Assembly: GCA_002844335.1 (NCBI GenBank)
Contig: CP019155.1
Coordinates: 310,001-374,000, forward strand
Direction of reading: 5' to 3'
Source: Haloarcula taiwanensis
GTDB lineage: Archaea; Halobacteriota; Halobacteria; Halobacteriales; Haloarculaceae
Length of the DNA stretch: 64,000 nt
Part shown: in pieces, positions 21,821 through 62,689 of the stretch
Layout: every line of letters starts with the position of its first letter
Position numbering within the stretch: position 1 is the first letter of the stretch
Translations under genes and position numbers: made by a program
The notes under the pieces: model-generated
Seen by the model: the letters and a program-made list of their open reading frames with translations, nothing else
Database searches by the model: none
Told to the model about the DNA's origin: nothing

Positions 21821-22135
21821 AGTGCAGTTTCCCGAACGAGAGGCACATGCCTCCCGGTATGGTTGTCTAGACCAAGCATGGGTCAGGACAAAAACTTTCG
21901 GTCCCTTGCCCCTCCGGCCGATATGCTGTTGAATCGTCGACCGATTGTGGTTGGTCGCTGGACGAATAGCCGATGGTATTTCAACGGTTGGACTATTCCA
22001 CATCATCCACTATACCCGCTGGGTTTGAGACGGATATCGAACGCTTGCCCGGTCTCCAGCTGCTGACTGACAGCAGCGATTCCACTCCCGAACACCTTCC
22101 CGGGAGATTCCGGGCTGAGAACGAACACAGCAATA
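21821..22135. other. Intergenic region between divergent pabB-like and folD genes
   Basis: 315 nt. It must hold both promoters. No gene, repeat or hairpin of note was seen. The open frames that cross it are extensions of the flanking genes with atypical composition. Confidence 0.4.
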
Positions 22136-29203: not shown

Positions 29204-29252
29204 GACATGAACCCCCACGTAACCTGTCCTCTTGAATGTTGCTCTTGTCCGC

Positions 29253-30422: not shown

Positions 30423-30466
30423 GCACTCCAGTCGTTCGGGAACCGATATCAAAGTACCGCTTGCCC

Positions 30467-31618: not shown

Positions 31619-31658
31619 ACACGGACAACTATCGCGGCGATAATAAAAGTAGAGGCGG

Positions 31659-33439: not shown

Positions 33440-33448
33440 CCCTGTCTG

Positions 33449-34810: not shown

Positions 34811-34862
34811 TAATGTCACCTATTTCCATGTACATAATTCTTTGTGTTGTGTCCATCATTGG

Positions 34863-35663: not shown

Positions 35664-35664
35664 A

Positions 35665-36762: not shown

Positions 36763-36951
36763 ACCGAGTAACATAAGCATCGCAATCATCATTAATAAAT
36801 GTTGGTAGTACCGGCAGGGGCAGGCAGACCAATCACATCGAAACCTGGCGAGCACTGTGGAGTACTATCCGGTATGACTGCGTAGCTAGCGGTTTTGAGT
36901 CATGCTGCAAATGGATACTCGGTAGTGCGACCTCGTACCGTAACGCGGAAC

Positions 36952-42952: not shown

Positions 42953-43450
42953 ATGAAAGTCTCGTTGATCGCTGCCGTCGCAGCTAACGGCGTGATCGGC
43001 GCTGGCGGCGACATTCCGTGGCAGTATCCCGAAGACCTGGCACACTTCAAGCAGACAACAGTCGGTCATCCCGTGATTATGGGGCGGCGAACCTTCGAGA
43101 GTATTCAGCGTGACCTTGGTGGCCCGCTGCCGAAGCGACTGAACATCGTCTTGACTACGACACCGAATCGCCTTCCGGACAGTGTTACGGCCGTTACCTC
43201 GACGACGTCGGCGTTGTCAGCAGCGGCCGATAGTGGTGCATCTACGACGTACGTCATCGGCGGGGCGACAGTGTACGAACAGTTTCTCCAACGGGCTGAC
43301 GAGCTAGTTCTGACGGAAGTATCAGCCCCTTTCGATGGCGATGTCGTCTTTCCGACAGTCGACCGGTCGTGCTGGACTGAGACCGACCGAACGACACACA
43401 GCGAGTTCGCTATCGTGAGCTACACTCGAACAAGCAGTTGCTCGGAATGA
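42953..43450 (+). CDS. folA: Dihydrofolate reductase
   Basis: 165 residues. Opens [20 protein letters not shown]; then [16 protein letters not shown] with the active-site acid at Asp28, [11 protein letters not shown] with the cofactor-binding Arg/Thr, and [13 protein letters not shown]. It reduces dihydrofolate to tetrahydrofolate. Haloarchaea often carry two DHFR copies (hdrA and hdrB in Haloferax); which one this is cannot be told. It supplies the carrier for the one-carbon genes around it. A CTTATT box lies about 31 nt upstream of the ATG. Confidence 0.95.
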
Positions 43451-43659: not shown

Positions 43660-45036
43660 ATGACCGGTAACGAGGAACATCCTAACCATCCCAGTGTCGA
43701 CCAGTCAGACCGGACCGTCCCACGTAACCTCCGCCAGACTGGTGACCCCAACATCGAGATGTTAGTGTCGACGCGCGTTCGAAAGTCTCCGTTCTTCCAC
43801 AAGTCATTCAATGAGGAGGGTGCCTGGCGGGCAACCGTCTACAACCGTCTCTATCACCCGCGCGGCCTCATCGAACCCGAAGATGGCGGTGTGATGAAGG
43901 AGTACGACGCACTGACCAACACCGTCACCCTCTGGGACGTTGCCGTAGAGCGCCAGATTCGTGTCAAAGGGCCTGACGCCGAAGCGCTAACGAACTACGT
44001 CGTCACACGCGACGTGACAGGTATGGACGCCATGGACGGGAAGTACGTCATCCTCTGTAACGAGGACGGTGGCGTCCTGAACGACCCCGTCCTCCTGCGT
44101 CCCGAGGAAGACGAGTTCTGGTTCTCCATCTCGGACTCGACGCTGATGCAGTGGCTCCAAGGTGTCAACGTCGACAACGATTTCGACGTCGAAATCGACG
44201 AGATCGACGTCGCACCGATGCAGATACAGGGTCCGAAAGCGCTTGACGTGATGGTCGATGTCGTCGGCGACGAGGTCAAAGATGTCCCGTACTACGGCCT
44301 GATGGACGGCGAAATCAACGGGGCCGACGTGCTCATCAGCCAGACCGGCTTCTCCGGTGAGAAAGGGTTCGAGATTTACGTCCGAAACGCCCACGAGGAC
44401 GCTGAGAAGGTATGGGACCCAGTTATGGAGTCCGTCAAAGACCACGGTGGTCGCCAGATCGCGCCGGGACACCACCGCCGGATTGCCGCCGGTATCATGT
44501 CCTGGGGTCAGGACCTCGACCACGAGACCTCCCCGTTCCAGGTCAATCTGGGCTATCACGTCCCTGACGACAAGGAGGCTGACTACATCGGGAAAGAGGT
44601 GCTCGAAGAGCAGAAAGAACAGATCGAGAACGGTAACTACCCGTTCCAGCACAAGCTTATCGGCCTGAAGATTGCCGGTGAGCCGATCCGCGACTACGCC
44701 CCCGACTTCTGGCTTATCTCTGATCCGGACACGGGCGAGGAGTGTGGCTACCTCACGTCCCCGTGGTGGAACCCGGACCTCGAAACCAACATCGGGATGG
44801 GGTTCGTCCCGGCCGAGAAGATTCAGGAAGTCACAGATACGCCGCTCAACGACGAGATTTACGACGAGGAACTGGACTTAGAGTTCCAGGTTCATCTCCC
44901 AGACGAGTACGCAGAGGAACCCGGCGAACCGGTGTTCGCCACCGCCGCGAAGGTGCCGTTCAAGGAGTCGGTCAATCCCAGCGCCCGTGAGCAGGCGAAG
45001 CTCAACGCCCGCAAAGAAGCCGAAAGCGACGACTAA
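43660..45036 (+). CDS. GcvT-family aminomethyltransferase-like protein, related to DMSP demethylase DmdA
   Basis: 458 residues, longer than GcvT of the glycine cleavage system (about 370). Family landmarks: TLWDVAVERQIRVKGPDAEA with the folate-side start, DVTGMDAMDGKYVILCNEDG, PMQIQGPKALDVM, SQTGFSGEKGFEIYV, then a C-terminal barrel with GYLTSPWWNPDLETNIGMGF. An extra N-terminal stretch (PFFHKSFNEEGAWRATVYNR) is shared by DmdA-like proteins. DmdA moves a methyl group from DMSP to THF; stand-alone relatives demethylate other compounds. No gcvH or gcvP is nearby, so a glycine-cleavage role is unlikely. Substrate inferred only: betaine, DMSP or another methyl donor. It is convergent with the MetF-like gene. 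Confidence 0.8.
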   Translation: MTGNEEHPNHPSVDQSDRTVPRNLRQTGDPNIEMLVSTRVRKSPFFHKSFNEEGAWRATVYNRLYHPRGLIEPEDGGVMKEYDALTNTVTLWDVAVERQIRVKGPDAEALTNYVVTRDVTGMDAMDGKYVILCNEDGGVLNDPVLLRPEEDEFWFSISDSTLMQWLQGVNVDNDFDVEIDEIDVAPMQIQGPKALDVMVDVVGDEVKDVPYYGLMDGEINGADVLISQTGFSGEKGFEIYVRNAHEDAEKVWDPVMESVKDHGGRQIAPGHHRRIAAGIMSWGQDLDHETSPFQVNLGYHVPDDKEADYIGKEVLEEQKEQIENGNYPFQHKLIGLKIAGEPIRDYAPDFWLISDPDTGEECGYLTSPWWNPDLETNIGMGFVPAEKIQEVTDTPLNDEIYDEELDLEFQVHLPDEYAEEPGEPVFATAAKVPFKESVNPSAREQAKLNARKEAESDD

Positions 45037-45332
45037 CTCCCGGACTCCGCCTGTCCCGGCAGCCAGCGCACTTCGCTGTCGTCCGCCGATTTTATTCTTT
45101 GACTGCCGTCCCGGTGCTCACTGAAACTGTCGTAGCGCTACGCTGCTTTGACACGTCACTCAGTCCTGCTTTGCTGTCGCTGGACAGATGTGTCTGCTGA
45201 ATATCCACGTCGCCTCTCGTTGTACTGCGGTGTGGTTATCGGGACACACCACTATCCGCTGTCAGAGACTACAATACGGTCGGAAACAGGTGGTTGTCGG
45301 GAGGCCGTCCGAGTCCGGGCAATCAGTCGGGG
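45037..45332. other. Intergenic region between convergent genes
   Basis: 296 nt between the stops of the GcvT/DmdA-like and MetF-like genes. A T-rich patch GATTTTATTCTTTG at 45089-45102 may serve termination. No gene supported. Confidence 0.35.
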
Positions 45333-46193
45333 TCAGGAATCGAGACGCTTGTGCCGCCATTTCTCCGTGTCGGGCGTCTGATTGAAAGTGTAGATGTGGA
45401 TGCCCCGGATGTTGTAGTCGTTGTCTCCGACGTATGGCGCGAGGCCGTCGATGAGTTCGTCTGGTTCGTAGGTCCCGCGAGAACCGACCAGTTGCTTGAC
45501 GAATCCGAGAATGCCTGTGGTCTTTCTGAGGAATTTGATCGAGTCACCGACACCGACTTTCTGGGAGATCTGCATCAGTCGCTGGTAGTTCATTACCCCC
45601 GGGATGCCGACTTCGACCGGGAGTTCGATACCGCGAGCACGGATCTCTTCGACCCACTCCAACACAGCATCCGGGTCGTAGCAGAGTTGCGTGACGATGT
45701 ACGTTGCGTACGGTGCTTTCCGTGCCATCGACTCCGCCAGCGTCTCGTCGTCGATGAAGTCGTGCCCCTCGGGGTAGCCCGTGATGCCCACCTCCTCGAA
45801 GTCGTACTCGGTGTCCGCGAGCGCTTCGAGCAGGTCGAGCGCCGACTCGAACTCGCCGGCCGGTTCTTCGCGGTCACCGCCAGGGACGAAAATGTCCGTG
45901 ATGCCTGCCTGGTCCAGTCGCCCGGCTATTGCTTCGAGTTGCGCCCGGTCTTCCACGTAGCGGGCTGCGACGTGCGGCACGACATCGTACCCCATTGCAG
46001 CGGCTTGCTCCGTCTTTTCGACGGTCTTCTCGATACCGAGCTGTGGCGAGGTCGTAATTGCGATGGTCGCGTCGTCGGGAAGGTGGGTGATTTCCTCGTC
46101 GAAGCTTTCGAACGGCATCAGTTCGAATCGGGCGCTCGTCAGCAGCGTCTGGACACCCTGACTGTTTGAGACTGCGTGAGTTCCGAGGGCCAT
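45333..46193 (-). CDS. metF: Methylenetetrahydrofolate reductase-like protein (MetF family)
   Basis: 286 residues, the size of a single-domain MetF. The (beta/alpha)8 features are there: FELMPFESFDEEI at the start (catalytic acid in the first strand), ITTSPQLG, VPHVAARYVEDRAQLEAI, DIFVPGGDREEP, GITGYPEGHDF (family phrase GYPEGH), TQLCYDPDAVLEWVEEI, and the ending IHIYTFNQTPDTEKW. MetF links methylene-THF and 5-methyl-THF; in DMSP demethylation it runs in the oxidising direction. It is convergent with the GcvT/DmdA-like gene and shares an unusual promoter motif with the gene at 46272. ATG 46193 chosen; ATG 46214 would add seven residues. Confidence 0.85.
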   Translation of the reverse strand: MALGTHAVSNSQGVQTLLTSARFELMPFESFDEEITHLPDDATIAITTSPQLGIEKTVEKTEQAAAMGYDVVPHVAARYVEDRAQLEAIAGRLDQAGITDIFVPGGDREEPAGEFESALDLLEALADTEYDFEEVGITGYPEGHDFIDDETLAESMARKAPYATYIVTQLCYDPDAVLEWVEEIRARGIELPVEVGIPGVMNYQRLMQISQKVGVGDSIKFLRKTTGILGFVKQLVGSRGTYEPDELIDGLAPYVGDNDYNIRGIHIYTFNQTPDTEKWRHKRLDS

Positions 46194-46271: not shown

Positions 46272-47471
46272 TCACGCACTATGTGGCGCACACTGCCGGA
46301 TTCGACTCGCCACTCTGCTGTAGGAGACAGTATGCTCCGGTTCGTCTGCCAGTCGGCACAGGACGAGGTCTAACAGATTGAGCTCCTCAAGCAGGTCCCG
46401 GGCCTGGCTGCGGTCAAGCCCCAGACATCGCTGCACCTCATACACCGTGTCTGACTCGACGACCGCGTCCGCGACGTCTCGCAACTGGACCTCAGCCGGG
46501 AGTCCGATCCCGTCGGTGACCAGTTGTTCGTCGGGAAGTTCTCCGACTGACTCGTCGGCGGGACCGGATGACTCAGCCGAGACAGGCTTGACCACAGTGA
46601 CCTGTTCTTCCTCATCCGTAGCTCCGGACTGAGTCGCGTCCTCGTCCGAGGCACCTGATTCGGTCGACGGGTCTTCCTCGTCGTCACTGGAGGTGTCGTA
46701 CGTGTTCGGGACGTGGATATCCGCTTCTATCATGTACCGTCGGACTGTCTCGGAGGACACGTCCATCTGTATTTTGTCGGCGATTTCTCTGAAGTTGTCG
46801 CATCCGTCGTACAGTGCTTGCAGGTAGTCGGTGTCCTCGTACGGTGGCACGGAGTCGTCGCGGACGGCGGCGTATGGGTCGGGTTCAGAGTCGGTGTCGT
46901 GACCCGACTGCGCGTCCGCCGTAGACGCGTCGCCTGCCAGTGAGTTTTCCTGTGACCCGCTTTCTCCGTCGCTGGTAGACTCTGCAGCCGAGACGGCCGA
47001 CCCATCGACCGGGTCATCGTCACCCTCGACGGTCCCGGCCGAACGTGGTGTGGTGGTCGCTGTGTCGCTGGAGCCTGCCCGGTCAGGCCCGCAGTCGGCG
47101 CTGGCTGCCCCCTCTGGTGCATCCGTGGCGTCGATTGTTAGATGCACCGTCAGGAGCAGGCCATCGTTGGTGACCGTCGCCGAAGCGTCGCATATCGACA
47201 GTGAGACACCGGAAGTCGACGGGAGTTCGGCAGCCGGTGGGGAGAACGTGACCTCGAGGTCACCACTCTCGGTCAACCTCGCAGTCTCCGGCGTGAGACT
47301 CTCGTCAGCGCCGCCACCGGAACGCAACGAGACCGGCATTGCCACCGTCACATCGAGGACTGCACCACCGATGTCGGCAGGCGATGCTTCGACGGTCTTG
47401 ATGGACCGACCGCGGGATTCGTACGCATCGATAACCTCCGCGAGCGCCGTGAAAGCGGTGTGGAGTCCCAT
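46272..47471 (-). CDS. Unrecognised acidic protein with two helix-turn-helix-like regions
   Basis: 399 residues. Residues 1-115 form a beta-rich domain (GGAVLDVTVAMPVSLRSGG, then SGDLEVTFSPPAAEL). A long acidic, Ser/Thr-rich linker runs to about 205. Residues 208-250 look like a DNA-binding HTH (YLQALYDGCDNFREIADKIQ, then MDVSSETVRRYMIEADIHVP). A second acidic linker follows, and residues 320-385 form another helical domain (PAEVQLRDVADAVVESDTVY, then LGLDRSQARDLLEELNLLDL). I do not recognise the family. The HTHs and the promoter motif shared with metF suggest a regulator acting in the same regulon, but this is inference. 78 nt separate its stop from the metF start, with the shared motif in between. 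Confidence 0.75.
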   Translation of the reverse strand: MGLHTAFTALAEVIDAYESRGRSIKTVEASPADIGGAVLDVTVAMPVSLRSGGGADESLTPETARLTESGDLEVTFSPPAAELPSTSGVSLSICDASATVTNDGLLLTVHLTIDATDAPEGAASADCGPDRAGSSDTATTTPRSAGTVEGDDDPVDGSAVSAAESTSDGESGSQENSLAGDASTADAQSGHDTDSEPDPYAAVRDDSVPPYEDTDYLQALYDGCDNFREIADKIQMDVSSETVRRYMIEADIHVPNTYDTSSDDEEDPSTESGASDEDATQSGATDEEEQVTVVKPVSAESSGPADESVGELPDEQLVTDGIGLPAEVQLRDVADAVVESDTVYEVQRCLGLDRSQARDLLEELNLLDLVLCRLADEPEHTVSYSRVASRIRQCAPHSA

Positions 47472-47608: not shown

Positions 47609-48565
47609 TTATCCCGGTATCGCGATACCCGCGAGACGCTCCCCCTTCACGACGACGGACTCCCTGGCAATCGAGAATATCACTCCTCGTTCTGTCGCTG
47701 GAACGACCTGTTGTTGCTCGAAGGAGGCTGGTTCGTATACAGTTCCCAGTCGCTCCCCGGCGTCGACAGTGTCGCCGACGGTGATGTCTGGCCGGGATTC
47801 GAACAGCCCCGATTCCGACGCGGTGACCGGCTCCGCATCGTTTCGGAGTACCGTTTGTGACGGTTTCGACTCGGGTTCTTCAGGGAGAACGCCACGCTCG
47901 CGTAGAAGATTCTGTATCCCGTCGACACCCGCTGCAACCGCGTCCTGTACAATCCGACGACTGTTCGACAGTTCTGCAGTGATAACTGGAATCCCGGCTG
48001 CTGCAGTCGCAGCCCGGAACGTCCTTCCGGACTTGTCGTCGTCTGTGTCATCGGGTACGTCGGTGAGCCTGTAGGACGTACCGAACGCTTCGGCGAGGCG
48101 CTCGGCGGCCGGGTCGCCCGCCCGGCATCTGACGTGTTCCAGCATATCTGCCGTGCCTGTGTGGAGGTCGACTGCCGCGTCGGCGCCTTTGACGAGTTCC
48201 CACAGTCGGGCGGCGAACTGCTCCTGTAAGCTCCCGCACTCGTCGCCCGGCCACACGCGGTTCAGGTTCGGGTTCATCACGTCGTACTCACCGGGGGTCA
48301 TGTATGACCGGTGGTCGAACGCAAGCTGGTTCACCACTGGGACGACAAGCACCCTCCCAGCGATGGCCACGTCAGTCAGGCGGTCGTGGAGCCGTCGCAA
48401 CGCGGCTGGACCGTTGAGTTCGATGCCGTGTTGCGCCGCCTGAATATACACAGTCGGTCCGGAACCGCCGACGTACCGGTGGACAGTCACAGACACGTCT
48501 CGCCCTGACGGCAATCGTCCGAGCTGTCGGTCAGTCGTCGTGTGCGTGACGGGCGCGTAGTCCAT
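47609..48565 (-). CDS. Succinylglutamate desuccinylase/aspartoacylase-family zinc hydrolase
   Basis: 318 residues. Zinc ligands His46 and Glu49 (QAAQHGIELNGP) and His135 (AVDLHTGT), substrate-binding NPNLNRVWPG at 98-107, and catalytic Glu198 (VITAELSNS). The C-terminal part (from about 245) is the small beta domain with a barrel-sandwich look (ITVGDTVDAGERLGTVYEP). The family removes acyl groups from N-acyl amino acids, for example AstE, aspartoacylase and the ectoine-pathway deacetylase DoeB. Substrate open; an N-acylated compatible solute is an option in this setting. The start 48565 is the only good in-frame ATG. Confidence 0.85.
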   Translation of the reverse strand: MDYAPVTHTTTDRQLGRLPSGRDVSVTVHRYVGGSGPTVYIQAAQHGIELNGPAALRRLHDRLTDVAIAGRVLVVPVVNQLAFDHRSYMTPGEYDVMNPNLNRVWPGDECGSLQEQFAARLWELVKGADAAVDLHTGTADMLEHVRCRAGDPAAERLAEAFGTSYRLTDVPDDTDDDKSGRTFRAATAAAGIPVITAELSNSRRIVQDAVAAGVDGIQNLLRERGVLPEEPESKPSQTVLRNDAEPVTASESGLFESRPDITVGDTVDAGERLGTVYEPASFEQQQVVPATERGVIFSIARESVVVKGERLAGIAIPG

Positions 48566-48930: not shown

Positions 48931-51501
48931 ATGGAGCCAACCGATAGCCTGCCGACCCATGCCGATACCGTCATCGTCGGTGCTGGAATCGTCGGCTGTA
49001 ACATCGCGTACCAGCTGACAGACCTCGGCCGCGAAGACGTGGTCGTGGTTGACCAGGGGCCGATGCCGACTACGGGTGGATCGTCGACGCACGCCCCCGG
49101 AATCATGTTCCAGACCGCGGAACCGAAGGTCCTCAGCCAGTTTGCGGATTACAGCCGTCGGCTGTACTCGGACCTCGAAGGGGCTGACGGACACCAGGCG
49201 TACAACGAAACAGGTGGCATCGAGGTGGCCCGGAGCGAGGAGCGCATGGACTTCCTCCAGCGCCGCGTCGAATACGCGAAGGCCTGGGGCATCGAAAACC
49301 CGCAGTTGCTGTCCCCAGAGGAAGTCACCGACCACCTCCCGCTGGTCGACGCCGACCAGATCAAGGGCGGCTACTACTCCCCGACGGACGGCCAGGTCTC
49401 GGGCGTCGTCGCCTGTGACGCGCTGGCCCGGGAAGCGATGGACCGGGGTGCGAAATTCGTCCCGCATACCCGCACCGAGGACGTGGAGACCGAGAACGGC
49501 TCGGTGCGGGCCGTCGTCACGGAGAACGGCACCATCGAGTGTAACGAGGTCGTCGTGGCGACGAACATCTGGGCCCGCCAGCTCGGCGAGAAGCTCGGCG
49601 TCCACCTGCCGGTGACGCCGGTCGAGCACCAGTACACGATGACGGAGTCGCTGGATGAACTGGCCGACAGCGCGGTCGACATCACTGACCACCCGCTGTT
49701 CGAGAACTACGAGAACGTCTCCGGAGAGAAGGCGAAGCGACTTCTCGTCGGGCCAGACCGGCCGATTCTCCGCGACCAGGATAACGCGATGTACTACCGG
49801 AACCACGGGGATTCCTACGGCATCGGCTCGTACAATCACGAGCCAATCGTGCCAGACCCACAGGAACTCGGCGGGAACGACCCCGACGGCGAGCAGGGAT
49901 CGGTCCACGAGTTCACCGACTACCACATGAACAACGCGACCCACCCGGACCGGCCGGACAAGGCCCCGCGCCAGGCCAGCGACGAGCTGTTGCCCGCGAC
50001 GGCCGGCAAGGAACTCGAACACAAGTACAACGGCATGTTCGCGGAGTCGCCCAACGGCCTCCCCGTGATGGGACCGGTCCAGGAGTACGACGGTCTCTGG
50101 ACGGCGGCGGCCATCTGGGTCACGCACGCCGGCGGTGCCGGCAAGGCCCTCGCCGAGTGGATGGAACACGGCGTCCCGCGCCTCCCTGACGGCCCGATTG
50201 ACCTCGCCCACTGCGACGTGAACCGCTTCGACGAGCACGAGGGCAGTTGGGACTTCGCTCGGGACATCGGCGGCGAGGAGTACCGCATCGTCTACAACAT
50301 CATGCACCCCAAGTGGGTCTGGACCGACAAACAGCGGGACATCCGTCGGACCCCGATGTACCACACACACAAGGAGTACGACGCCGAACTGTGGGCTGAG
50401 GCCGGCTGGGAGGAGCCACACTGGTTCGACTCCAACGCCGACCTGCTGGCGGAGTACGGTGACCGGATCCCCGACCGCGAGGGCTGGGAGGCGAAGTACT
50501 GGTCGCCAATCGAGGGCGCGGAGGCGCTGAACGTCCGGAACAACGTCGGTCTCCACGACATGACATCGTTCAATAAGATGGAGGTCATCGGGAGCGACGC
50601 CGGTGAGTTCGTCCAGTACCTCTGTACGAACGACATGGACATCGACGTGGGCGACGTGAAGTACACGCTGATGTGCAACGAGGGCGGCGGCGTCCGGGCC
50701 GACATCACGGTCACCCGGACCGATGAGGACCGCTACCTCCTGCTGACGACCGGCCGCGAGGTCGGGAACAACCACGTCGCGTGGGTGCGCGAGCAATCCC
50801 CCGACGACGTGGTCGTCAACGACGTAACATCGAACCTGGCGGCGATGGTCTGTACCGGCCCGAACGCCCGGAAGGTCCTCTCGAAGGTCACCGACGTCGA
50901 CCTCTCGGACGACGCCTTCCCCTTTTTCACGAGCCAGCAGTTCTTCGTCAAGAACATCCCCGTCACTGCGCTCCGCGTCTCCTATGCGGGCGAACTCGGC
51001 TGGGAGCTGTACACGCCCTCTGAGTACGGCGAACGCCTCTGGGAGCACATCATGGAGGCCGGCGAGGAGTACGGCATCCGCCCGTACGGCAACGGCGCGC
51101 TCGATTCGCTCCGCATCGAGAAAGGCTTCCGGCTCTGGGGGAAGGACCTCCACACGGAGCACAACCCCTACGAGGCCGGCCTCGGCTGGGCCGTCGACCT
51201 CGAAACCGACTTCATCGGCAAGGAGGCGGTCGCGGCGGCCGCCGACGGCGACAACATCGACCACAAGGTCGCCTGTCTGACCCTCGACGACGAGGACGCC
51301 GTCGTGTTGGACAACAAGCCAGTCCTCGACGGTGACGAGACCATCGGCTATCTCCACAGCGCCGAGTACGGCTACACTGAAGGCGCGTGTGTCGCCTACA
51401 CGTACCTGCCGCCGGAGTACGCTGAACCCGGAACCAGCGTCGAAATCCTCTACGAAGGGGAGCGATACGACGCGACGGTCCGCGAGGAGCCGCTCGTCTG
51501 A
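48931..51501 (+). CDS. Dimethylglycine/sarcosine dehydrogenase-like flavoprotein-aminomethyltransferase fusion (copy 1)
   Basis: 856 residues. The N-terminal DAO domain has the FAD loop VIVGAGIVGCNIAYQL (14-29) and GGSSTHAPGIMFQT, where His54 matches the covalent FAD histidine of Arthrobacter dimethylglycine oxidase. From about 480 the GcvT folate domain follows (VGLHDMTSFNKMEVIGSDAG, then LCTNDMDIDVGDVKYTLMCN, LRVSYAGELGWELYTP). The length equals that of dimethylglycine oxidase (about 830). The family removes an N-methyl group from dimethylglycine or sarcosine and passes it to THF as methylene-THF; without THF it gives formaldehyde. Followed by a paralogue and the ammonia-lyase in the same direction. 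Confidence 0.9.
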   Translation: MEPTDSLPTHADTVIVGAGIVGCNIAYQLTDLGREDVVVVDQGPMPTTGGSSTHAPGIMFQTAEPKVLSQFADYSRRLYSDLEGADGHQAYNETGGIEVARSEERMDFLQRRVEYAKAWGIENPQLLSPEEVTDHLPLVDADQIKGGYYSPTDGQVSGVVACDALAREAMDRGAKFVPHTRTEDVETENGSVRAVVTENGTIECNEVVVATNIWARQLGEKLGVHLPVTPVEHQYTMTESLDELADSAVDITDHPLFENYENVSGEKAKRLLVGPDRPILRDQDNAMYYRNHGDSYGIGSYNHEPIVPDPQELGGNDPDGEQGSVHEFTDYHMNNATHPDRPDKAPRQASDELLPATAGKELEHKYNGMFAESPNGLPVMGPVQEYDGLWTAAAIWVTHAGGAGKALAEWMEHGVPRLPDGPIDLAHCDVNRFDEHEGSWDFARDIGGEEYRIVYNIMHPKWVWTDKQRDIRRTPMYHTHKEYDAELWAEAGWEEPHWFDSNADLLAEYGDRIPDREGWEAKYWSPIEGAEALNVRNNVGLHDMTSFNKMEVIGSDAGEFVQYLCTNDMDIDVGDVKYTLMCNEGGGVRADITVTRTDEDRYLLLTTGREVGNNHVAWVREQSPDDVVVNDVTSNLAAMVCTGPNARKVLSKVTDVDLSDDAFPFFTSQQFFVKNIPVTALRVSYAGELGWELYTPSEYGERLWEHIMEAGEEYGIRPYGNGALDSLRIEKGFRLWGKDLHTEHNPYEAGLGWAVDLETDFIGKEAVAAAADGDNIDHKVACLTLDDEDAVVLDNKPVLDGDETIGYLHSAEYGYTEGACVAYTYLPPEYAEPGTSVEILYEGERYDATVREEPLV

Positions 51502-51717: not shown

Positions 51718-54270
51718 ATGAGCACAGAGACTCCCCCGTCTCGGGCGGATACTGTTGTTATCGGTGCCGGGGCCGTCGGGTGTAGCGTCGCGTATCACCT
51801 GACGGAACTCGGCGCGGAGGACGTTGTCGTCATCGACCAGGGACCGCTCCCGGTCACCGGTGGGTCATCAGTCCACGCGCCCGGCATCATGTTCCAGACG
51901 TCGCCGTCGAAAATACAGACGAAGACGGCGCACTACACCAGCCGACTGCTCTCCGATGCTGGCGTCTACGACGAGGTCGGTGGCATCGAAGTGGCCCGGA
52001 GCGAGGAGCGCATGGACTTCCTCCGTCGGCGCGTTGAGTGGGCGACTTCCTATGGGCTGCCGGAACCGCAGTTGCTCTCGTCCGAGGAAGTTACCGAGCA
52101 CCTTCCGATGGTCGACGAGGACGAAATCCTCGGTGGCTACTACTCGCCGACTGATGGACGCGTCGACGGCATCGGCGCGCTCCAGTGGTATATGGAAAAC
52201 TCTTCGGCGTCGTTCTACGGGAACACGGAGGTCACGGATCTGGATGTTTCGGGCGGCGAAATCAACGCTGTCGAGACCGATCAGGGGCGAATCGACTGCG
52301 AGCGAGCGGTCATCGCGACGAACAACTGGGGCTACCAGACTGGCCAACTGGCCGGGCTGGACCTGCCAATCGCGCCGGTCGAACACCAGTACGTTGTCAC
52401 CGAACCGATGGACGAACTCGCCGACGCCGAGACCTCGGTCGGCGACAACACGACCGGGCTGGACGTACCGGGTGACCGCTCCATCGCGGAGTACATGAGC
52501 GAGGGGCCACACCGGCCGGTCGGCCGCGACCAGGACCACTCGCTGTACTTCCGGACCCACGGCGACGCGCTCGGGATGGGGTCGTACAACCACGAGCCAC
52601 TCTCAGTCGACCCCGAGGCGATGGGGAAAAACTCCGAGGAACACCAGGCTTCGGTCAGGGGGTTCACGAAGGAACACTGGGAGACGCCGACCCACCGCGG
52701 GCGGGACAAATCGGCCAAGCAGGCCTTCGACGAACTGCTCCCGGCGACACAGGACGTGGAATACGAAGCCACCGAGAACGGGATTTTCGTCTTTACACCT
52801 GATGGGATGCCCGCCGTTGGCGAGACAGCGCAGGTCGACGGCCTCTGGACCGGACTGGCTATCTGGTGGACCCACTCCGGCGGCTACGGCCGCATCCTCG
52901 CCGAGTGGATGGAGAACGGCGTTCCGCGGCTGCCGTCCGGTCCGGTCGACACTGGCGGCATCCACGTCCGGCGGTTCGAACCCCACGCCGGCGAGAAGGA
53001 CTACTTTGTCGACCGCGGGGCCAAGCGCTACGAGCAGGTGTACAGCATCGTCGAGCCGCGGTGGCAGCCCGACGACCACCGGGGACTTCGGACGAGTCCG
53101 TTCTACCACCAGCAAAAAGAACTCGGCGCGGAGTTCTACCAGAGCGGCGGCTGGGAGACGCCACAGTGGTACGAGTCGAACGCCGACTTAGTCGAAAGAT
53201 ACGAGGACCGGATTCCCGACCAGGACGGCTGGCAGGGCATCAACCGCTCGAAAATCGAGGCTGCGGAGCATCTCCACACCCGCGACAAGGTGTCGATGTT
53301 CGACATGACGACGTTCAGTTCGATCATGGTCGAAGGCGAGGGGAGCCAGGCGTTCCTCCAGCGGGTCTGTAGCAACGACATGGATCTCGACGTCGGGCAG
53401 GTCCGCTACTCGCTGCTGTTGAACGAGGGCGGTGGCATTCTCGCGGACATCACGGTCGTCAAACTCGACGACGAGGCGTTCATGGTGACGACCGGCGGCG
53501 GGAACTCCCCCGGCATCCACGGCGGTCACCTGGAAGACGAGGCTCCCGCGACGGTGTCGGTCCACGTCGAGGAGGGCGCGAAGTCGACAATCGGTCTCTG
53601 GGGGCCGAACGCCCGACTCCTCCTCCAGCGATGTACCGACGCGGACGTGACCAACGACGGCTTCCCGTACTTCCGGGCCAAGCAAATGTACGTTGGCGAC
53701 GTGCCGGTCATCGCCCTGCGGGTCTCCTATGTCGGCGAACTCGGCTGGGAGCTGTGGGCGCCGACGGAGTACGGCCAGCGCCTCTGGGAGACGTTACAGG
53801 ACGCCGGCGAGGACCTCGGCGTTCGGCCGATGGGCGGCGGCGCGCTCAGTTCCATGCGATTAGAGAAAGGCTACCGCCTCTGGGGGACGGACATCGACAC
53901 GGACTCGAACCCCTTCGAGGCCGGGCTGCCCTTCGCCGTCGACATGGACACCGAGTTCATCGGCAAGGCAGCTCTGGAAACCGCACGCGAGGCGGGTATC
54001 GACAGCAAAATTACCCCGGTCACGCTCGACGACTCGACAGATATCATGCTGAGCGGTCGACCAGTCCTGAAAGACGGTGAGACACTCGGCTACGTGCAGG
54101 CCGGGAACTACGGCTACAGTATCGACGAGTCGATCGCCTACACGTACGTCCCGACCGAACACGCCGAAGCCGGAACGTCGGTTCAGATACAGTGCGAGGG
54201 CGAGACATACGACGCGACGGTGCGTGACGAGCCGCTGTTCGATCCGACCCGCGAGCGAATCATCAGATAG
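51718..54270 (+). CDS. Dimethylglycine/sarcosine dehydrogenase-like flavoprotein-aminomethyltransferase fusion (copy 2)
   Basis: 850 residues, colinear with copy 1. FAD loop VVIGAGAVGCSVAYHL, His53 in GGSSVHAPGIMFQT, and the GcvT domain with VSMFDMTTFSSIMVEGEGSQ, CSNDMDLDVGQVRYSLLLNE and LRVSYVGELGWELWAP. The two copies agree in all motifs but differ throughout the substrate half (for example EHQYTMTESLDEL against EHQYVVTEPMDEL; ITDHPLFENYENV against VGDNTTGLDVPGD), so they are old paralogues. One could act on dimethylglycine, the other on sarcosine. A TATTTAAG box about 33 nt upstream gives it its own promoter. Confidence 0.9.
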   Translation: MSTETPPSRADTVVIGAGAVGCSVAYHLTELGAEDVVVIDQGPLPVTGGSSVHAPGIMFQTSPSKIQTKTAHYTSRLLSDAGVYDEVGGIEVARSEERMDFLRRRVEWATSYGLPEPQLLSSEEVTEHLPMVDEDEILGGYYSPTDGRVDGIGALQWYMENSSASFYGNTEVTDLDVSGGEINAVETDQGRIDCERAVIATNNWGYQTGQLAGLDLPIAPVEHQYVVTEPMDELADAETSVGDNTTGLDVPGDRSIAEYMSEGPHRPVGRDQDHSLYFRTHGDALGMGSYNHEPLSVDPEAMGKNSEEHQASVRGFTKEHWETPTHRGRDKSAKQAFDELLPATQDVEYEATENGIFVFTPDGMPAVGETAQVDGLWTGLAIWWTHSGGYGRILAEWMENGVPRLPSGPVDTGGIHVRRFEPHAGEKDYFVDRGAKRYEQVYSIVEPRWQPDDHRGLRTSPFYHQQKELGAEFYQSGGWETPQWYESNADLVERYEDRIPDQDGWQGINRSKIEAAEHLHTRDKVSMFDMTTFSSIMVEGEGSQAFLQRVCSNDMDLDVGQVRYSLLLNEGGGILADITVVKLDDEAFMVTTGGGNSPGIHGGHLEDEAPATVSVHVEEGAKSTIGLWGPNARLLLQRCTDADVTNDGFPYFRAKQMYVGDVPVIALRVSYVGELGWELWAPTEYGQRLWETLQDAGEDLGVRPMGGGALSSMRLEKGYRLWGTDIDTDSNPFEAGLPFAVDMDTEFIGKAALETAREAGIDSKITPVTLDDSTDIMLSGRPVLKDGETLGYVQAGNYGYSIDESIAYTYVPTEHAEAGTSVQIQCEGETYDATVRDEPLFDPTRERIIR

Positions 54271-54324: not shown

Positions 54325-55587
54325 ATGACACAAACAGAATCGGACACGCTGCCCGTCACGTACGCAGACATCGAACGAGCCCGCGAACGACTGGATGACG
54401 ACACAGTCGTAAAAAAGACGCCGGTCGAGCGGAGTACGTCTCTCGGCGGGTTCGTCGACGCTGAGGTACACCTGAAGATGGAGCATCTCCAGTGGACTGG
54501 GTCGTTTAAAACCAGAGGCGCGTACAACAAAATCTCACAGGATGTCGCCGACGGCGTAGAGTCATTCGTCGCCGCCAGCGCTGGCAACCACGCTCAGGGC
54601 GTCGCCCTCGCCGCGACGAAATGCGGGGCGGAGGCGACGATTTTCATGCCGGAGAACGCACCACAGGCGAAGATTGACGCCACCAGAGGCTACGGCGCGA
54701 GCGTCGAACTGGTCGGCAACGACTTTCAGGAGACGATGTCTCATGCCAAGGCCGTCGTCGAGGAAGCCGACGCCGAGTTCGTCCACGCCTACGACGACCT
54801 GGACATCATCGCCGGACAGGGGACCCTCGGCACGGAGATGTACCACGACTGCCCCGACGTCGACACGGTTGTCGTTCCAATCGGTGGCGGTGGTCTCATC
54901 AGCGGTGTCTCGACTGCTATCAAACACCTCTCGCCCGAGACGCGTGTCGTCGGCGTTCAGGCGACCGGTGCGGAGACGGTCCACGAGAGCCTCGACAAGG
55001 GGATACCGGTCGTGCTTGACGAAGTCGACACTATCGCCGACGGTATCGCCACCGGCGGTATCTCGGAGACGACGCTCGGCATAATCGAGGCGAACGTAGA
55101 CGAGGTCGTGACAGTTTCGGACACCGATATCGCACAGGCGATTCTCCTGCTGATGGAACGGGCCAAACAGGTCGTCGAAGGCGCCGGGGCCGCCTCGGTG
55201 GCCGCTGTGCTGAGCGACGGCCTCGACGTGTCCGGGGAGACGGTGATGCCGCTACTCTGTGGCGGGAACCTCGACATGACACAGATGCGTGAGGTTCTCA
55301 TCCACGCGCTCACAGAGCGCCAACAGCTCCTGCAGCTCCGGGTCCGCATCAACGATCAGCCGGGCGTGATGGAGGAAATATCGGGTGTCATCGCCAGACA
55401 GGGGGCCAATATCCACGATGTCCGGCACGAACGGTCCGTCGAGAATCTCGAAATCGGGGAGGCCTACCTCGTGTTCAACGTCGAGACAAGCGGTGCAGAG
55501 CACGCACAGACGATCATCACCGCGATTCGTGACGCGGGCTATCCCGTCGACAACGTGGCACGCAAGGCCCAGAACGACGCACTGTAA
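54325..55587 (+). CDS. ilvA: Threonine/serine ammonia-lyase with ACT domain
   Basis: 420 residues. PLP lysine Lys62 in GSFKTRGAYNK, phosphate loop PIGGGGLISG near residue 190, and SAGNHAQGVALAA near 90. From about 330 a C-terminal ACT domain (LLQLRVRINDQPGVMEEISG) allows amino acid control. Short type like catabolic TdcB with one ACT domain. It deaminates threonine to 2-oxobutyrate (isoleucine synthesis) or serine to pyruvate. It starts 54 nt after the second DMGO-like gene, so serine made from glycine and methylene-THF is an attractive substrate here; the 2-aminoacrylate formed would need RidA. Confidence 0.9.
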   Translation: MTQTESDTLPVTYADIERARERLDDDTVVKKTPVERSTSLGGFVDAEVHLKMEHLQWTGSFKTRGAYNKISQDVADGVESFVAASAGNHAQGVALAATKCGAEATIFMPENAPQAKIDATRGYGASVELVGNDFQETMSHAKAVVEEADAEFVHAYDDLDIIAGQGTLGTEMYHDCPDVDTVVVPIGGGGLISGVSTAIKHLSPETRVVGVQATGAETVHESLDKGIPVVLDEVDTIADGIATGGISETTLGIIEANVDEVVTVSDTDIAQAILLLMERAKQVVEGAGAASVAAVLSDGLDVSGETVMPLLCGGNLDMTQMREVLIHALTERQQLLQLRVRINDQPGVMEEISGVIARQGANIHDVRHERSVENLEIGEAYLVFNVETSGAEHAQTIITAIRDAGYPVDNVARKAQNDAL

Positions 55588-56700: not shown

Positions 56701-58461
56701 ATGGCAGATAGTGACGAACAAGCCGGCGAAATGTCGGACGGGCTCCAGGTAGAGCTGTTCCATCCGGAGTCCGACCGCGAGCCCGGTGATACGAACATTC
56801 AGGCGGCTGGCTTCGACATCCATCCAGTTGTCTTCCCGGTGGCACTGGCGATAATTGCGCTGTTCATCGCAGTGACGATACTGCTCGGCGACACAGCAGC
56901 CTCCGCGTACACGTGGCTGTTCAATACCATCGGGGACACCTTCGGCTGGTTCTACCTGCTGGCGGTGAACGTGTTCATCGTCACATTGCTGTACTTCGCG
57001 TTCAGCAAGTACGGTAAAATAAAGATCGGCGGCGTCGAGGCCGAGAAGGAGTTCAGCGACTTCTCCTGGATGGCGATGCTATTCAGCGCCGGCATGGGCA
57101 TCGGCCTCATGTTCTTCAGCGTCTCGGAACCGCTGTACTACTTCCAGAACCCGCCGAGTTTCTTCGGAGCCGAAGCCGGAACCGGTGCGGCAGCGTCCGC
57201 CGCGATGGCACAGACGTTCTTCCACTGGGGCTTTCACCCGTGGGCGGTGTACGGGCTGGTTGGACTGGGCCTCGCGTTTTTCTCGTTCAACCGCGGGCTC
57301 CCGCTTACCTTCCGGTCGATATTCTGGCCCCTCCTTGGTGAGCGAATCTACGGCTGGCCGGGCCATGTCATCGACCTCGTGACGGTGTTCGCGACGCTGT
57401 TCGGGCTGTCGACCTCGCTGGGACTCGGTGTTGCCCAGGTCAATACGGGACTGTCCTACGTTGGCGGGGACATGCTCGGTGCGGTGAGTGTCCCGACAGG
57501 GACTTGGCCGCAGGTCGCGCTCATCGCCGGTATCACGCTCATCGCGACGCTCTCAGTTGCGGCAGGGCTCGACGGTGGGGTCAAACGCCTGAGCACGCTC
57601 AACCTCTACCTGATGTTCGCGCTTCTCGGGTTCCTCGCTATCGTGGGTCCCACGGTGTACATTTTCGGGACGTGGGTCGAGGGACTCGGCGCGTACTTCG
57701 GGAACATCCTTGCGCTCGGGTTCTTCACCGGGACGCTCAACGAAGCCGCGAACGGCACCCCCACCGCCTGGACCGTGTTCTACTGGGGCTGGTGGATCGC
57801 GTGGTCGCCGTTCGTCGGAATGTTCATCGCGCGCATTTCGAAGGGTCGGTCCGTTCGGGAGTTTGTCCTGGGCGTGCTGTTCCTTCCGTCGCTGTTCTCG
57901 ACGCTCTGGCTGTCGGTGTTCGGCGGCAGCGCGATGTTCAATTCGCTCGTAGGAAACGGGCAGGCGATAGCGACCTACAACGAGGTCGGCCAGACCGTCG
58001 CGATGTTCGCCCTGCTGGAGCAGTTCCCGCTCGGTGTCGTCAGCGGACTGCTCGCGACCCTGCTGGTCATCACGTTCTTCGTCACGTCGTCGGACTCCGG
58101 GTCACTGGTCATTGACCACCTGACCTCGGGCGGTAAGCACGATGTTCCACGAACGCAACGGATCTTCTGGGCCGTCACCGAGGGACTTGTCGCATCTATC
58201 CTGCTCATCGGTGGCGGACTGACGGCGCTCCAGACGGCCGCAATCACGACGGGACTCCCGTTCGCGCTCATCCTGTGTCTGATGTGTTACACGGTGTATC
58301 TGGGGCTCGACAACGAGTACCAGATACTCGAGTCCGAGGAGTTTGCGGAAACCATCCAGGACCTCTCCGAACGGGAAGACATGGACATCGTGACCGCTGG
58401 CGACGAGATGGTGACGGATATCTCCGAACGGAGCGACGACGCTGCGACAGGGACCGACTGA
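56701..58461 (+). CDS. BCCT-family transporter, canonical betaine/choline/carnitine type
   Basis: 586 residues, 12 helices. Helix 3 has the Na+-coupled motif GMGIG in FSAGMGIGLMFFSVSEPL; the family signature WGWWIAWSPFVGMFIARISK is present; LLFTSS-like end of helix reads FFVTSSDSGSLVIDHLTSGG. The C-terminus is acidic and cytoplasmic (MDIVTAGDEMVTDISERSDD), where osmosensing domains lie in BetP-type carriers. It probably imports glycine betaine, choline or carnitine, as osmolyte or as food for the demethylating enzymes upstream. A weak Shine-Dalgarno-like GAGAGGGG ends 6 nt before the ATG. Confidence 0.9.
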   Translation: MADSDEQAGEMSDGLQVELFHPESDREPGDTNIQAAGFDIHPVVFPVALAIIALFIAVTILLGDTAASAYTWLFNTIGDTFGWFYLLAVNVFIVTLLYFAFSKYGKIKIGGVEAEKEFSDFSWMAMLFSAGMGIGLMFFSVSEPLYYFQNPPSFFGAEAGTGAAASAAMAQTFFHWGFHPWAVYGLVGLGLAFFSFNRGLPLTFRSIFWPLLGERIYGWPGHVIDLVTVFATLFGLSTSLGLGVAQVNTGLSYVGGDMLGAVSVPTGTWPQVALIAGITLIATLSVAAGLDGGVKRLSTLNLYLMFALLGFLAIVGPTVYIFGTWVEGLGAYFGNILALGFFTGTLNEAANGTPTAWTVFYWGWWIAWSPFVGMFIARISKGRSVREFVLGVLFLPSLFSTLWLSVFGGSAMFNSLVGNGQAIATYNEVGQTVAMFALLEQFPLGVVSGLLATLLVITFFVTSSDSGSLVIDHLTSGGKHDVPRTQRIFWAVTEGLVASILLIGGGLTALQTAAITTGLPFALILCLMCYTVYLGLDNEYQILESEEFAETIQDLSEREDMDIVTAGDEMVTDISERSDDAATGTD

Positions 58462-60089: not shown

Positions 60090-62489
60090 TCACTGTTGTC
60101 GAAGCTGGGACGGTCGAGCCGCCGTCGCTGAAACCGTCTTGAGGACGGCGTTGTTCTCGGAGACATCGTGAACTCTGACGGCGTCAGCCCCACGCTCGGC
60201 GGCAAGTGCCGTTGTTGCCAGCGTCGGCGGCAGCCTGTCCGCTCCTGCGTCGCTCATATCGGCAAACATCGACTTCCGAGAGTGCCCGACCAGCACCGGA
60301 CAGCCGAGCGCGTGGAACTCGTGGAGCCGGTCGACGAGTTCGAACGATTCGGCGGCGTTCTTTCCGAACCCACAGCCGGGGTCGACGATAACCTGCTCGC
60401 GGTCAATACCGGCCTGCTCGGCGAGCAGTACCTGTTCTGTGAGCTCTCGAAGCACGTCATCGACGACATCGTCGTATGTGACAGTTCGACCCGGATCCAC
60501 TGGCGCGGACAGACTGTGCATCAGGACAACGGACGCGTCGTGGTCAGCTACCACGAACCGCATCTCGGGGTCCGACAGTCCCGACACGTCGTTGACGATG
60601 TCGGCCCCGGCATCCAGCGCCGCGTCAGCGACGGCAGCTTTCCGGGTATCTACAGAGACAGTCGCATCGAGCGACGAAACGGCCTCGATAACCGGTACTA
60701 CGCGGTCGATCTCTGTTTCGACGGTCACCGGCTCCGCCCCGGGGCGCGTACTCTCGCCGCCGATGTCGACGATATCCGCCCCAGATTCGATCATCTGTTC
60801 CGCATGACTGATAGCGAGGTCGCGACGATTGTACTCGCCACCGTCGTAGAAACTGTCCGGCGTGACGTTGAGAATCCCCATCACGGCTGCTGCATCAGTG
60901 TCGAACGGCGGCGGGAACGATCTGTCAGCTAGCGCGTCTTCGAGTTGCGTGGCCAGTCGGCCAAGCCCCAGTCCTGCCGAGGCCAGTCGGTCAGTGAGCT
61001 GTCGGAACTGTCGCGGCGTCCCCGACAGGGTCGTGTCGACGAGCTTCTCCGGCATCCCGACAGTCGAACGGGTGCAGGTGCCACCGCAGTCCTCGAACGC
61101 CTGCGTGACGACGCCTGCCTGGTCGCGCCGCAACGTGACCGAAAGTACCCGCTGGCGGATCTCTGGCTCACTTTTGACTCCATCAGCTTCTCCCGTAGAT
61201 GCTTGCTGGAGGTTCTCCTTTGGAACAACGAGCCGGCTCCAGCGGTCCCGTGCTTCGGCAACTGCATATAGTGAGCCGGCCACGAGGACGAAATCGTCCG
61301 CGTCGGCCGTAGCTATCGCTCGTTCGGTGGCTTCTGGAACGGACTCGGCCTGCTGTACCCGAGTTGCTTGCCCCTCAAACGCCGCAGCGAGTGATTTGGT
61401 GCTCGCGGCTCGGTTGACTTCCGGTCGCGCGGTAAAGGCCGTCTCGACTGCCGGCAGCGCCCCAATCATCCGCTCGTACTCCTTGTCGCTCATCGCGGCG
61501 AAGACCACATGGAGGTCGTCGTACTCGTATCGCTCGATGAGTGCCGTCAGCGTCTCCATCGCACCGGGGTTGTGGGACCCATCGAGGACCACCATCGGGT
61601 CGGTCGACCGGATTTCGAACCGGCCCGGTAAGGTTGCAGCCCGCAGTCCTTCGGAGACGGTTTCGGTGTCTACGCCGATGAGTTGTCGGGCCAGCGTCGC
61701 TGCGACACCGGCGTTCTCTGCTTGATGCTGTCCGAGTAGCTTGAGGTTCGATTCGAGAGCCCAGTCCGGCCCAGTGAGTGAGATGCGGTTCTCGACGGCC
61801 GAGCGCATGCCGTTCTCGACAGCGGTGACATCGGCCTCGTCGTCGCCGACGGTGATGGTATCGGTAATCTCCTGAATCGCATCGAGTGCGGCCCCGGTCG
61901 TTCCTGTCACGAGCGGGGCGTCCCGCGGCGCGACCTGCGCTTTGTCACGGGCGATTTCTTCGACTGTGTCGCCGAGCAGGTCGGTGTGTTCTAAACTGAT
62001 GCTGGTGACGGCGCTTGCGACGGGAGCGACCGCGCTCGTAGCATCGTATCGGCCACCGATGCCGACTTCCAGCACCGCCACATCGACATCCTCGACATCG
62101 AAGTGATACAGCGCTAGCGCGGTGAGTACCTCGAAATGCGTCGGCTTGTCCTCCTCGGCAGCCAGTTGGTCGATACAGGGCTCGATCTGCTCGACGAACT
62201 CCGTTACCCGTTCTTTCGGTACCCGACCGCCGTTGACCGTAATCTGCTCCCGGAAGCCGTTCAATCCTGGCGAGGTGAACAGACCGACATCTAGCCCGGC
62301 GGCCCTGAGCACGCTTTCGGTCATCCGGGCGGTGCTTCCCTTTCCGTTCGACCCGGCAATCTGCACGCTATCGAAACTGTCGTCCGGGTCACCGAGATGT
62401 GAAAGCATCCGCGCCGTCGTATCGGTTCCCAACTTGGGCCGACGACGCTGTAACGACTGCAAGTAGTCCGCCGACTCGTGGTACTCCAT
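60090..62489 (-). CDS. folCP: FolC-FolP fusion: dihydrofolate/folylpolyglutamate synthase plus dihydropteroate synthase
   Basis: 799 residues. Residues 1-420 are a Mur-ligase-type FolC: QIAGSNGKGSTARMTESVLR (P-loop), LFTSPGLNGFREQITVNGG, VGIGGRYDATSAV, and VVLDGSHNPGAMETL. Residues about 520-790 are FolP: AAVMGILNVTPDSFYDGGEY, DIGGESTRPGAEPV, SVDTRKAAVADAAL, IVDPGCGFGKNAAESF and PVLVGHSRKSMF. This fusion is established in haloarchaea such as Haloferax volcanii. It makes dihydropteroate and then adds glutamate. ATG 62489 has an ATTAAT box 27 nt upstream. Divergent from formate-THF ligase. Confidence 0.95.
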   Translation of the reverse strand: MEYHESADYLQSLQRRRPKLGTDTTARMLSHLGDPDDSFDSVQIAGSNGKGSTARMTESVLRAAGLDVGLFTSPGLNGFREQITVNGGRVPKERVTEFVEQIEPCIDQLAAEEDKPTHFEVLTALALYHFDVEDVDVAVLEVGIGGRYDATSAVAPVASAVTSISLEHTDLLGDTVEEIARDKAQVAPRDAPLVTGTTGAALDAIQEITDTITVGDDEADVTAVENGMRSAVENRISLTGPDWALESNLKLLGQHQAENAGVAATLARQLIGVDTETVSEGLRAATLPGRFEIRSTDPMVVLDGSHNPGAMETLTALIERYEYDDLHVVFAAMSDKEYERMIGALPAVETAFTARPEVNRAASTKSLAAAFEGQATRVQQAESVPEATERAIATADADDFVLVAGSLYAVAEARDRWSRLVVPKENLQQASTGEADGVKSEPEIRQRVLSVTLRRDQAGVVTQAFEDCGGTCTRSTVGMPEKLVDTTLSGTPRQFRQLTDRLASAGLGLGRLATQLEDALADRSFPPPFDTDAAAVMGILNVTPDSFYDGGEYNRRDLAISHAEQMIESGADIVDIGGESTRPGAEPVTVETEIDRVVPVIEAVSSLDATVSVDTRKAAVADAALDAGADIVNDVSGLSDPEMRFVVADHDASVVLMHSLSAPVDPGRTVTYDDVVDDVLRELTEQVLLAEQAGIDREQVIVDPGCGFGKNAAESFELVDRLHEFHALGCPVLVGHSRKSMFADMSDAGADRLPPTLATTALAAERGADAVRVHDVSENNAVLKTVSATAARPSQLRQQ

Positions 62490-62514
62490 ACCATAACTGG
62501 TCGGCGGTGGCATG

Positions 62515-62520
62515 ATTAAT
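62515..62520 (-). promoter_or_regulatory. TATA-like box of folCP
   Basis: ATTAAT centred about 28 nt before the ATG at 62489; it supports that start over the upstream in-frame ATG at 62513. Confidence 0.45.
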
Positions 62521-62689
62521 GTATCGCCACGGGGGACTTTTCCGCCCGCCGTCGGTTCGGACCTACTCCGGTAAGCGGAGGAACACGATGTGTCGTCGTC
62601 GGCCGTCGGCGGCGTCTCGAACACATCCTATTCCGGTAGTGTCAGGTTCACTAACATTATTACGACGGTGCAGGGAAGGGTAAGTAGAG

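Follow-up and report, generated by a model that had tools for sequence, protein, structure and literature searches.

We analyzed a 64,000-nucleotide stretch of the Haloarcula taiwanensis genome (contig CP019155.1, positions 310,001 to 374,000; hereafter, the window) and found a 458-residue GcvT-family protein that probably demethylates glycine betaine, using tetrahydrofolate (THF) as the methyl acceptor. We call this DmdA-like protein and its orthologues Dmd. The substrate, the direction of the reaction, and the roles of the neighboring genes are read from sequence and gene neighborhood. That Dmd performs THF-linked demethylation is very likely. The sequence-only reading had proposed a methyl donor:THF demethylase feeding a neighboring MetF, and a phylogenetic tree, a DmdA-type fold, DmdA-type residues, and linkage to MetF in three lineages agree with this proposal.

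Family placement of Dmd

Over its full length, Dmd shares 97% identity with HAH_RS18290 on pHH400 of Haloarcula hispanica, which is annotated as 'glycine cleavage system protein T'. Pfam recognizes GCV_T in Dmd (148 bits, cut-off 25.6), with GCV_T_C below threshold (21.3, cut-off 25.9). Among NCBIfam models, DmdA fits best at 247.7 bits, about 160 bits short of its equivalog cut-off of 410 (Marinovum DmdA, as a control, scores 680.8 bits), and gcvT gives 145.5 bits, under its cut-off of 235.85. The predicted fold of Dmd (predicted local distance difference test score, pLDDT, 83; predicted template modeling score, pTM, 0.82) has Pelagibacter ubique DmdA (3TFH) as its top structural match, with a TM-score of 0.93 on the target, followed by GcvT; the model has the GcvT-type three-domain fold. 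3TFH is also the best solved relative of Dmd by sequence.

We built a maximum-likelihood tree of 67 sequences, including 31 Dmd rows from haloarchaea, Pelagibacterales, rhodobacters, and gammaproteobacteria. The 31 Dmd proteins group together at 100/99; their sister group consists of DmdA and a bacterial clade X, and these three groups together split from GcvT, trimethylamine N-oxide demethylase, DMGDH, and SoxA at 100/100. Long outgroup branches lower the certainty of the root; the 31-member clade is independent of the root. Hence, Dmd is neither GcvT nor DmdA but a well-supported sister clade of DmdA.

Residues in the alignment agree with this. Y61, N62, N141, W154, and S156 are common to the Dmd clade and DmdA and are not found in GcvT; Y129 and Y240 are likewise common to Dmd and DmdA, as are the folate-fold residues D142 (D96 of Thermotoga maritima GcvT) and E238 (E195), both kept in 31/31 members. 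Hence, neither observation that the sequence-only reading had named as fatal, a position within GcvT in the tree or an exact match to GcvT residues, was made. The clade also has a fixed signature of its own: Y65-H66, together with the glutamines Q228 and Q294, at sites where almost the whole of the rest of the family retains arginine and glutamate, respectively (R194 and E259 in DmdA). In addition, all 31 members have F231 at the site of W197 of 3TFH, a residue named as a contact for dimethylsulfoniopropionate (DMSP) in PMC7487153, and GcvT has tyrosine at this site; the DMSP-contact residues were taken from that paper and the alignment, not from structure coordinates. At this site, tryptophan is present in three of four DmdA rows and 16/17 clade-X rows, with tyrosine in one row of each.

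Dmd has a longer N-terminus, as had been read from the sequence. The model is of low confidence for residues 1-28, yet residues 14-44 hold the motif DQSDRxxPRNLRQxG...STRxRKSP, which is near-invariant across 14 haloarchaeal members and mostly retained in the SAR11 and gammaproteobacterial orthologues. The extended N-terminus is a genuine feature, and its motif is extra relative to DmdA. Also as first read, no GcvH or GcvP gene was recognized by eye in the open reading frame lists of the window or in the annotated H. hispanica region. A true GcvT is encoded on a different contig (L003), and so is a YgfZ-like protein.

Two groups of earlier-described proteins bear comparison. The 'non-DmdA' clade of PMC7487153 has F171 at the position of W197 of 3TFH, judged by the offset of conserved glutamate and tyrosine residues, and haloarchaeal accessions appear among its members; that study assigned no function and described a dimethylglycine dehydrogenase-like model. 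The O-demethylases LigM and DesA are GcvT-family proteins of similar length that pass methyl groups to THF, but they act on aryl ethers, are 15-16% identical to Dmd, and fit its fold less well (TM-scores 0.52-0.59).

Coupling to MetF and distribution

The gene next to dmd encodes a MetF-like protein, as the sequence-only reading had it; dmd and metF are convergent and about 300 nt apart. The protein exceeds the Pfam MTHFR cut-off of 24 and scores 68.8 bits on NCBIfam MetF against an equivalog cut-off of 293.7, so by its profile scores it is a divergent MetF. Its best solved relative, PDB 7xg9 (E 8e-36), was not used as support.

We found that Dmd and MetF occur together. In the 293 haloarchaeal genomes of the window's order, Dmd is present in 70, MetF is present in 70/70 of these, and only two of the genomes lacking Dmd have it (Fisher p 5e-66; all Fisher tests in this work ignore relatedness among genomes). 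The two genes lie within 5 kb of each other in 53 of the 70. At least 10 genera, counted by eye without a genome tree, are mixed for Dmd, and MetF tracks Dmd in all their genomes except G129. Hence, in haloarchaea this MetF is not a housekeeping enzyme but goes with Dmd. Beyond haloarchaea, MetF adjoins Dmd in 9/9 SAR11 and 5/5 gammaproteobacterial loci examined (fragmented in L201), and the SAR11 genes are directly adjacent, often with a 5-nt overlap. This coupling in three distant lineages is the pattern expected if Dmd makes 5-methyl-THF and MetF oxidizes it; in bacteria with DmdA, the 5-methyl-THF product is likewise thought to be oxidized by MetF.

The sequence-only reading had proposed an archaeal demethylase. 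The DmdA-like demethylase part of that proposal stands, but the restriction to archaea does not: in addition to the haloarchaeal genomes, Dmd orthologues are present in 119/147 Pelagibacterales genomes sampled (52-59% identity), 5/198 genomes of the family of Roseovarius atlanticus, and 5/195 genomes of the order of Halomonas denitrificans. The last order has a further subgroup of 42-46% identity that the tree puts nearer DmdA.

The SAR11 orthologue, with MetF adjacent, is almost certainly SAR11_1265, an identification made from its published description and metF adjacency, not from a direct match of locus tags. Sun et al. (2011; PMC3160333) described SAR11_1265 as a DmdA-related aminomethyltransferase of unknown substrate beside metF (SAR11_1264), suggested the pair as a possible member of the SAR11 Ia core genome, and guessed at a second demethylation in DMSP breakdown, where we propose betaine as the donor. 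Both genes drop together in stationary phase (PMC5069961). One SAR11 genome carries the Dmd orthologue, a clade-X protein, and a canonical DmdA, the last a full-length match to 3TFH beside acyl-CoA synthetase and dehydrogenase genes. We also noted a conserved neighborhood around the SAR11 pair (L166, L194-L199), with genes for a Rieske oxygenase, an S-adenosylmethionine methyltransferase, APS-kinase-like and cytidylyltransferase-like proteins, a peptidase M19, a 553-aa protein, and a DUF3726 protein.

Some haloarchaea have a Dmd paralogue of 66-71% identity (L036 at 8913-10415, L037, L038, L041, L042, and L044), in tandem with Dmd in L036 and lacking a MetF neighbor; its only recurrent neighbor, often beside it, is an HTH_10 regulator gene. 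Its P143F and W282L differences suggest a different substrate.

Clade X ('FGFGTQIRKSPYF'; L064-L143, L056-L059) is a large marine DmdA-like group that scores below the DmdA cut-off. The tree rejects its members as Dmd orthologues. A scan seeded with a Lichenihabitans protein yielded mainly clade X, and the Dmd orthologues came from searches of these genomes and of their orders or families. In roseobacters and others its genes lie in Lrp-Dmd-OsmC-enoyl-CoA hydratase-acyl-CoA synthetase runs, and in Marinobacterium, which has two copies, they lie near PurU, MetF, FolD, and a BCCT carrier. Clade X is another candidate THF demethylase.

The methyl donor

The sequence-only reading had left the donor as DMSP, betaine, or another compound. 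We found that gene neighborhoods favor betaine and make DMSP unlikely. The island around Dmd (Table 1) holds two dimethylglycine-oxidase-like fusions and two BCCT carriers, along with dihydrofolate reductase, FolD, PabAB, FolC-FolP, formate dehydrogenase, and an IlvA-type lyase. Fusions of a flavin adenine dinucleotide (FAD) oxidoreductase to GcvT, of the dimethylglycine type, are present in 49/70 Dmd genomes and 16/223 others (p 3e-25). The Pfam families of the three known betaine demethylases, BHMT (PF02574), MttB/MtgB (PF06253), and the GbcA-type oxygenase (PF00848), have no match in the 99.9% complete H. taiwanensis genome. Before looking, we predicted that fusion-bearing haloarchaea without Dmd would have a GbcA-like Rieske oxygenase, and this was borne out in 16/16 such genomes. 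A Rieske gene lies within 12 kb of the fusion in all 16, compared with 7/49 fusion-bearing genomes with Dmd (p 4e-10). The L213 island keeps the conserved set p46272-DMG1-FolD-DMG2-IlvA-BCCT (gene names as in Table 1) but has neither Dmd nor MetF, and Rieske genes lie next to it. GbcA is the best named family of these haloarchaeal Rieske proteins.

Corroborating these results, Dmd and MetF lie beside GbdR, a serine dehydratase, and a DMGDH-like fusion in the gammaproteobacterial loci L200, L201, and L203; the L200 GbdR, the one scored, has 500.8 bits, above its equivalog cut-off of 480. In L204, Dmd leads a co-directional run of Dmd, MetF, a DMGDH/sarcosine-type fusion, SoxB, and SoxA. Hence, through the fusions, SoxBA, GbdR, and the Rieske replacement, Dmd is linked in genomes to dimethylglycine and sarcosine demethylation and to betaine regulation. 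In the literature, dimethylglycine-type enzymes and carriers were reported in four haloarchaea, with betaine use suggested and the first enzyme not named (PMC3102087).

The Rieske oxygenases of L213-L218 are compact (about 336-388 aa), with two in a row in L213. They are linked to fusions that resemble dimethylglycine oxidase, to genes like those of monomeric sarcosine oxidase, and to serine hydroxymethyltransferase. From their sequences and setting, they are probably archaeal betaine monooxygenases missed by the GbcA cut-off.

Several points weigh against betaine as the donor. The haloarchaeal Rieske proteins, at about 145 bits against a GbcA cut-off of 670, can be called only probable betaine monooxygenases, and seven genomes that carry Dmd also have a Rieske gene close to the fusion. 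The Fisher values are inflated by relatedness. The absence of the three known betaine demethylase families was established by Pfam models and in H. taiwanensis alone. Haloquadratum walsbyi, reported with fusion-type genes, reportedly grew no better with betaine (PMC3102087). At the threshold used, 21/70 genomes with Dmd and MetF have no fusion. The best PDB match of the BCCT carrier in the island is a trimethylamine transporter (8zw8), ahead of choline transporters and BetP. Finally, for betaine SAR11 has BHMT as well (PMC3160333), so the Dmd donor there could differ.

The last three of these points would also fit a THF-dependent demethylase of some other quaternary or tertiary amine (e.g. choline, carnitine, proline betaine, trimethylamine, or its N-oxide) that shares its island with the dimethylglycine enzymes, and the haloarchaeal paralogue, with its P143F and W282L differences, is where an alternative amine is likeliest. 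For Dmd itself we consider this unlikely: the GbcA-like Rieske replacement beside a dimethylglycine enzyme and the linkage to GbdR and SoxBA place betaine just upstream of dimethylglycine.

A haloarchaeal DmdA that converts DMSP to methylmercaptopropionate and 5-methyl-THF is less likely still. DmdA is the nearest characterized relative by sequence and fold as well as the best NCBIfam match, some BCCT-type carriers transport DMSP, and DddT is among the PDB matches of the island's transporter. However, Dmd falls well below the DmdA cut-off and outside the DmdA clade, and it has phenylalanine for W197 in every member (though some DmdA-type proteins have tyrosine). Moreover, the SAR11 genome described above keeps a canonical DmdA alongside its Dmd orthologue, and homologues of DmdB, DmdC, and DmdD did not turn up near haloarchaeal Dmd genes.

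It is very improbable that the pair runs in reverse, with MetF making 5-methyl-THF that Dmd uses to methylate some substrate (methionine synthesis would be one such use). In most organisms MetF does act as a reductase, and GcvT-fold chemistry is in principle reversible, but about three quarters of haloarchaeal genomes have neither Dmd nor MetF; hence, the pair is not a general methionine supply. In addition, the island holds catabolic and one-carbon-oxidation genes and transporters, and methyl loss from an onium center is downhill. A diverged glycine-cleavage T protein, for which the fold, the Pfam domain, and the annotation would speak, is hardly credible given the true GcvT elsewhere in the genome, the fully supported separation in the tree, the low gcvT score, and the five DmdA-type residues that replace those of GcvT.

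The betaine island and the proposed pathway

We found that the genes around Dmd (Table 1) keep the order of H. hispanica pHH400, in which dihydrofolate reductase, 'glycine cleavage system protein T', methylenetetrahydrofolate reductase, and a hypothetical protein are followed by a desuccinylase-like protein, two FAD oxidoreductases, ilvA, a universal stress protein, and a BCCT transporter. Both fusions have all four Pfam domains of dimethylglycine oxidases/dehydrogenases above cut-off. DMG1, the fusion that was compared, matches dimethylglycine oxidase 1pj5 best in the PDB over residues 13-855 (E 3e-176). Homologues of p46272 (32-41% identity) are present in several haloarchaeal islands of both the Dmd and the Rieske type.

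Table 1. Genes of the window discussed in the text (window coordinates)
Feature	Position	Strand	Basis or remark
Zinc alcohol dehydrogenase, glutathione-independent formaldehyde dehydrogenase-like	6202..7365	+	NCBIfam fdhA_non_GSH 332 bits, below cut-off 637
Formate dehydrogenase alpha subunit	10176..13484	-	NCBIfam Fdh-alpha 824 bits, cut-off 666
Second BCCT-family transporter	17863..19719	+	NCBIfam betaine_BCCT 360 bits, cut-off 650
PabA and PabB-like folate-synthesis genes	19740..22006	-	names from sequence; homologues near Dmd in other families
FolD, methylene-THF dehydrogenase/cyclohydrolase	22136..23029	+	name from sequence and homology; homologues near Dmd in other haloarchaea
Dihydrofolate reductase upstream of Dmd	42953..43450	+	Pfam DHFR_1 165.6 bits; same arrangement in H. 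hispanica
Dmd, DmdA-like GcvT-family protein, predicted glycine betaine:THF methyltransferase	43660..45036	+	458 aa, ATG start; signature F231, Q228, Q294, Y65-H66
MetF-like 5,10-methylene-THF reductase, predicted to oxidize 5-methyl-THF	45333..46193	-	286 aa from ATG at 46193; longer open reading frame starts 46214; Pfam MTHFR 56.3 bits
Conserved protein p46272, adjoins MetF and DMG1	46272..47471	-	no Pfam match
AstE/AspA-type deacylase (DoeB-like)	47609..48565	-	Pfam AstE_AspA_cat 92 bits; NCBIfam DoeB 83.6 bits, below cut-off; homologues in other islands
DMG1, FAD oxidoreductase + GcvT fusion, predicted dimethylglycine or sarcosine demethylase	48931..51501	+	Pfam DAO, FAO_M, GCV_T, GCV_T_C
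DMG2, second FAD + GcvT fusion, predicted sarcosine or dimethylglycine demethylase	51718..54270	+	Pfam DAO, FAO_M, GCV_T, GCV_T_C
IlvA-type threonine/serine ammonia-lyase	54325..55587	+	ilvA in H. hispanica; kept in Dmd-type and Rieske-type islands
BCCT transporter, predicted betaine or methylated-amine uptake	56701..58461	+	NCBIfam betaine_BCCT 516 bits (cut-off 650), bcct 473 (cut-off 408)
FolC-FolP fusion, folate synthesis	60090..62624	-	Pfam Pterin_bind 275 bits, Mur_ligase_C, Mur_ligase_M

In the pathway we propose, betaine would be taken up by the BCCT transporter and bound in the Dmd pocket, where F231 would replace the DMSP-contacting tryptophan. Dmd would then convert glycine betaine and THF to dimethylglycine and 5-methyl-THF by a DmdA-like mechanism, with the methyl group passing from the cationic donor to N5 of THF in a direct, redox-neutral transfer. 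The neighboring MetF would oxidize 5-methyl-THF to methylene-THF, and the two fusions would take dimethylglycine to sarcosine and then to glycine, each step yielding methylene-THF. The one-carbon units may be oxidized by FolD and formate dehydrogenase, and glycine may pass via serine to pyruvate through the IlvA-type lyase.

Elsewhere in the window, a sugar-type ABC transporter with creatininase-family, SDR, and enolase-superfamily genes (28361-36855, minus strand) is probably a separate catabolic operon, and a further creatininase-like gene lies at 9198-9935.

The predicted step, betaine to dimethylglycine, is the one catalyzed by BHMT, MtgB/MttB, and GbcAB, but these proteins are unrelated to Dmd and work with homocysteine as the acceptor, with a corrinoid protein, or with oxygen, the last releasing formaldehyde. 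A GcvT-fold, THF-dependent demethylase paired with MetF is already known (DmdA, LigM), and the clade had been seen before without a function. In the open literature (subscription papers and preprints lay outside the search), we found no description of the betaine assignment, the interdomain distribution, or the Rieske replacement pattern. With the chances evenly balanced, Dmd could be a fourth route for the first methyl group of betaine, direct to THF and without oxygen, B12, or homocysteine, in haloarchaea and most SAR11, where the SAR11_1265-1264 pair would feed betaine methyls into one-carbon oxidation.

Few osmolytes are as abundant in brines and the sea as glycine betaine. The first step of its demethylation in haloarchaea had not been named (only the dimethylglycine enzymes and carriers were described, in PMC3102087), and no function has been established for the SAR11_1265-metF pair since its description in 2011. 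If our assignment is true, one gene pair accounts for both: it would supply a betaine demethylase linked to THF and independent of oxygen, cobalamin, and homocysteine, and the SAR11 betaine route would not be limited by methionine demand. In that case, genes annotated as GcvT, or loosely counted as dmdA in ocean surveys, may do another job.

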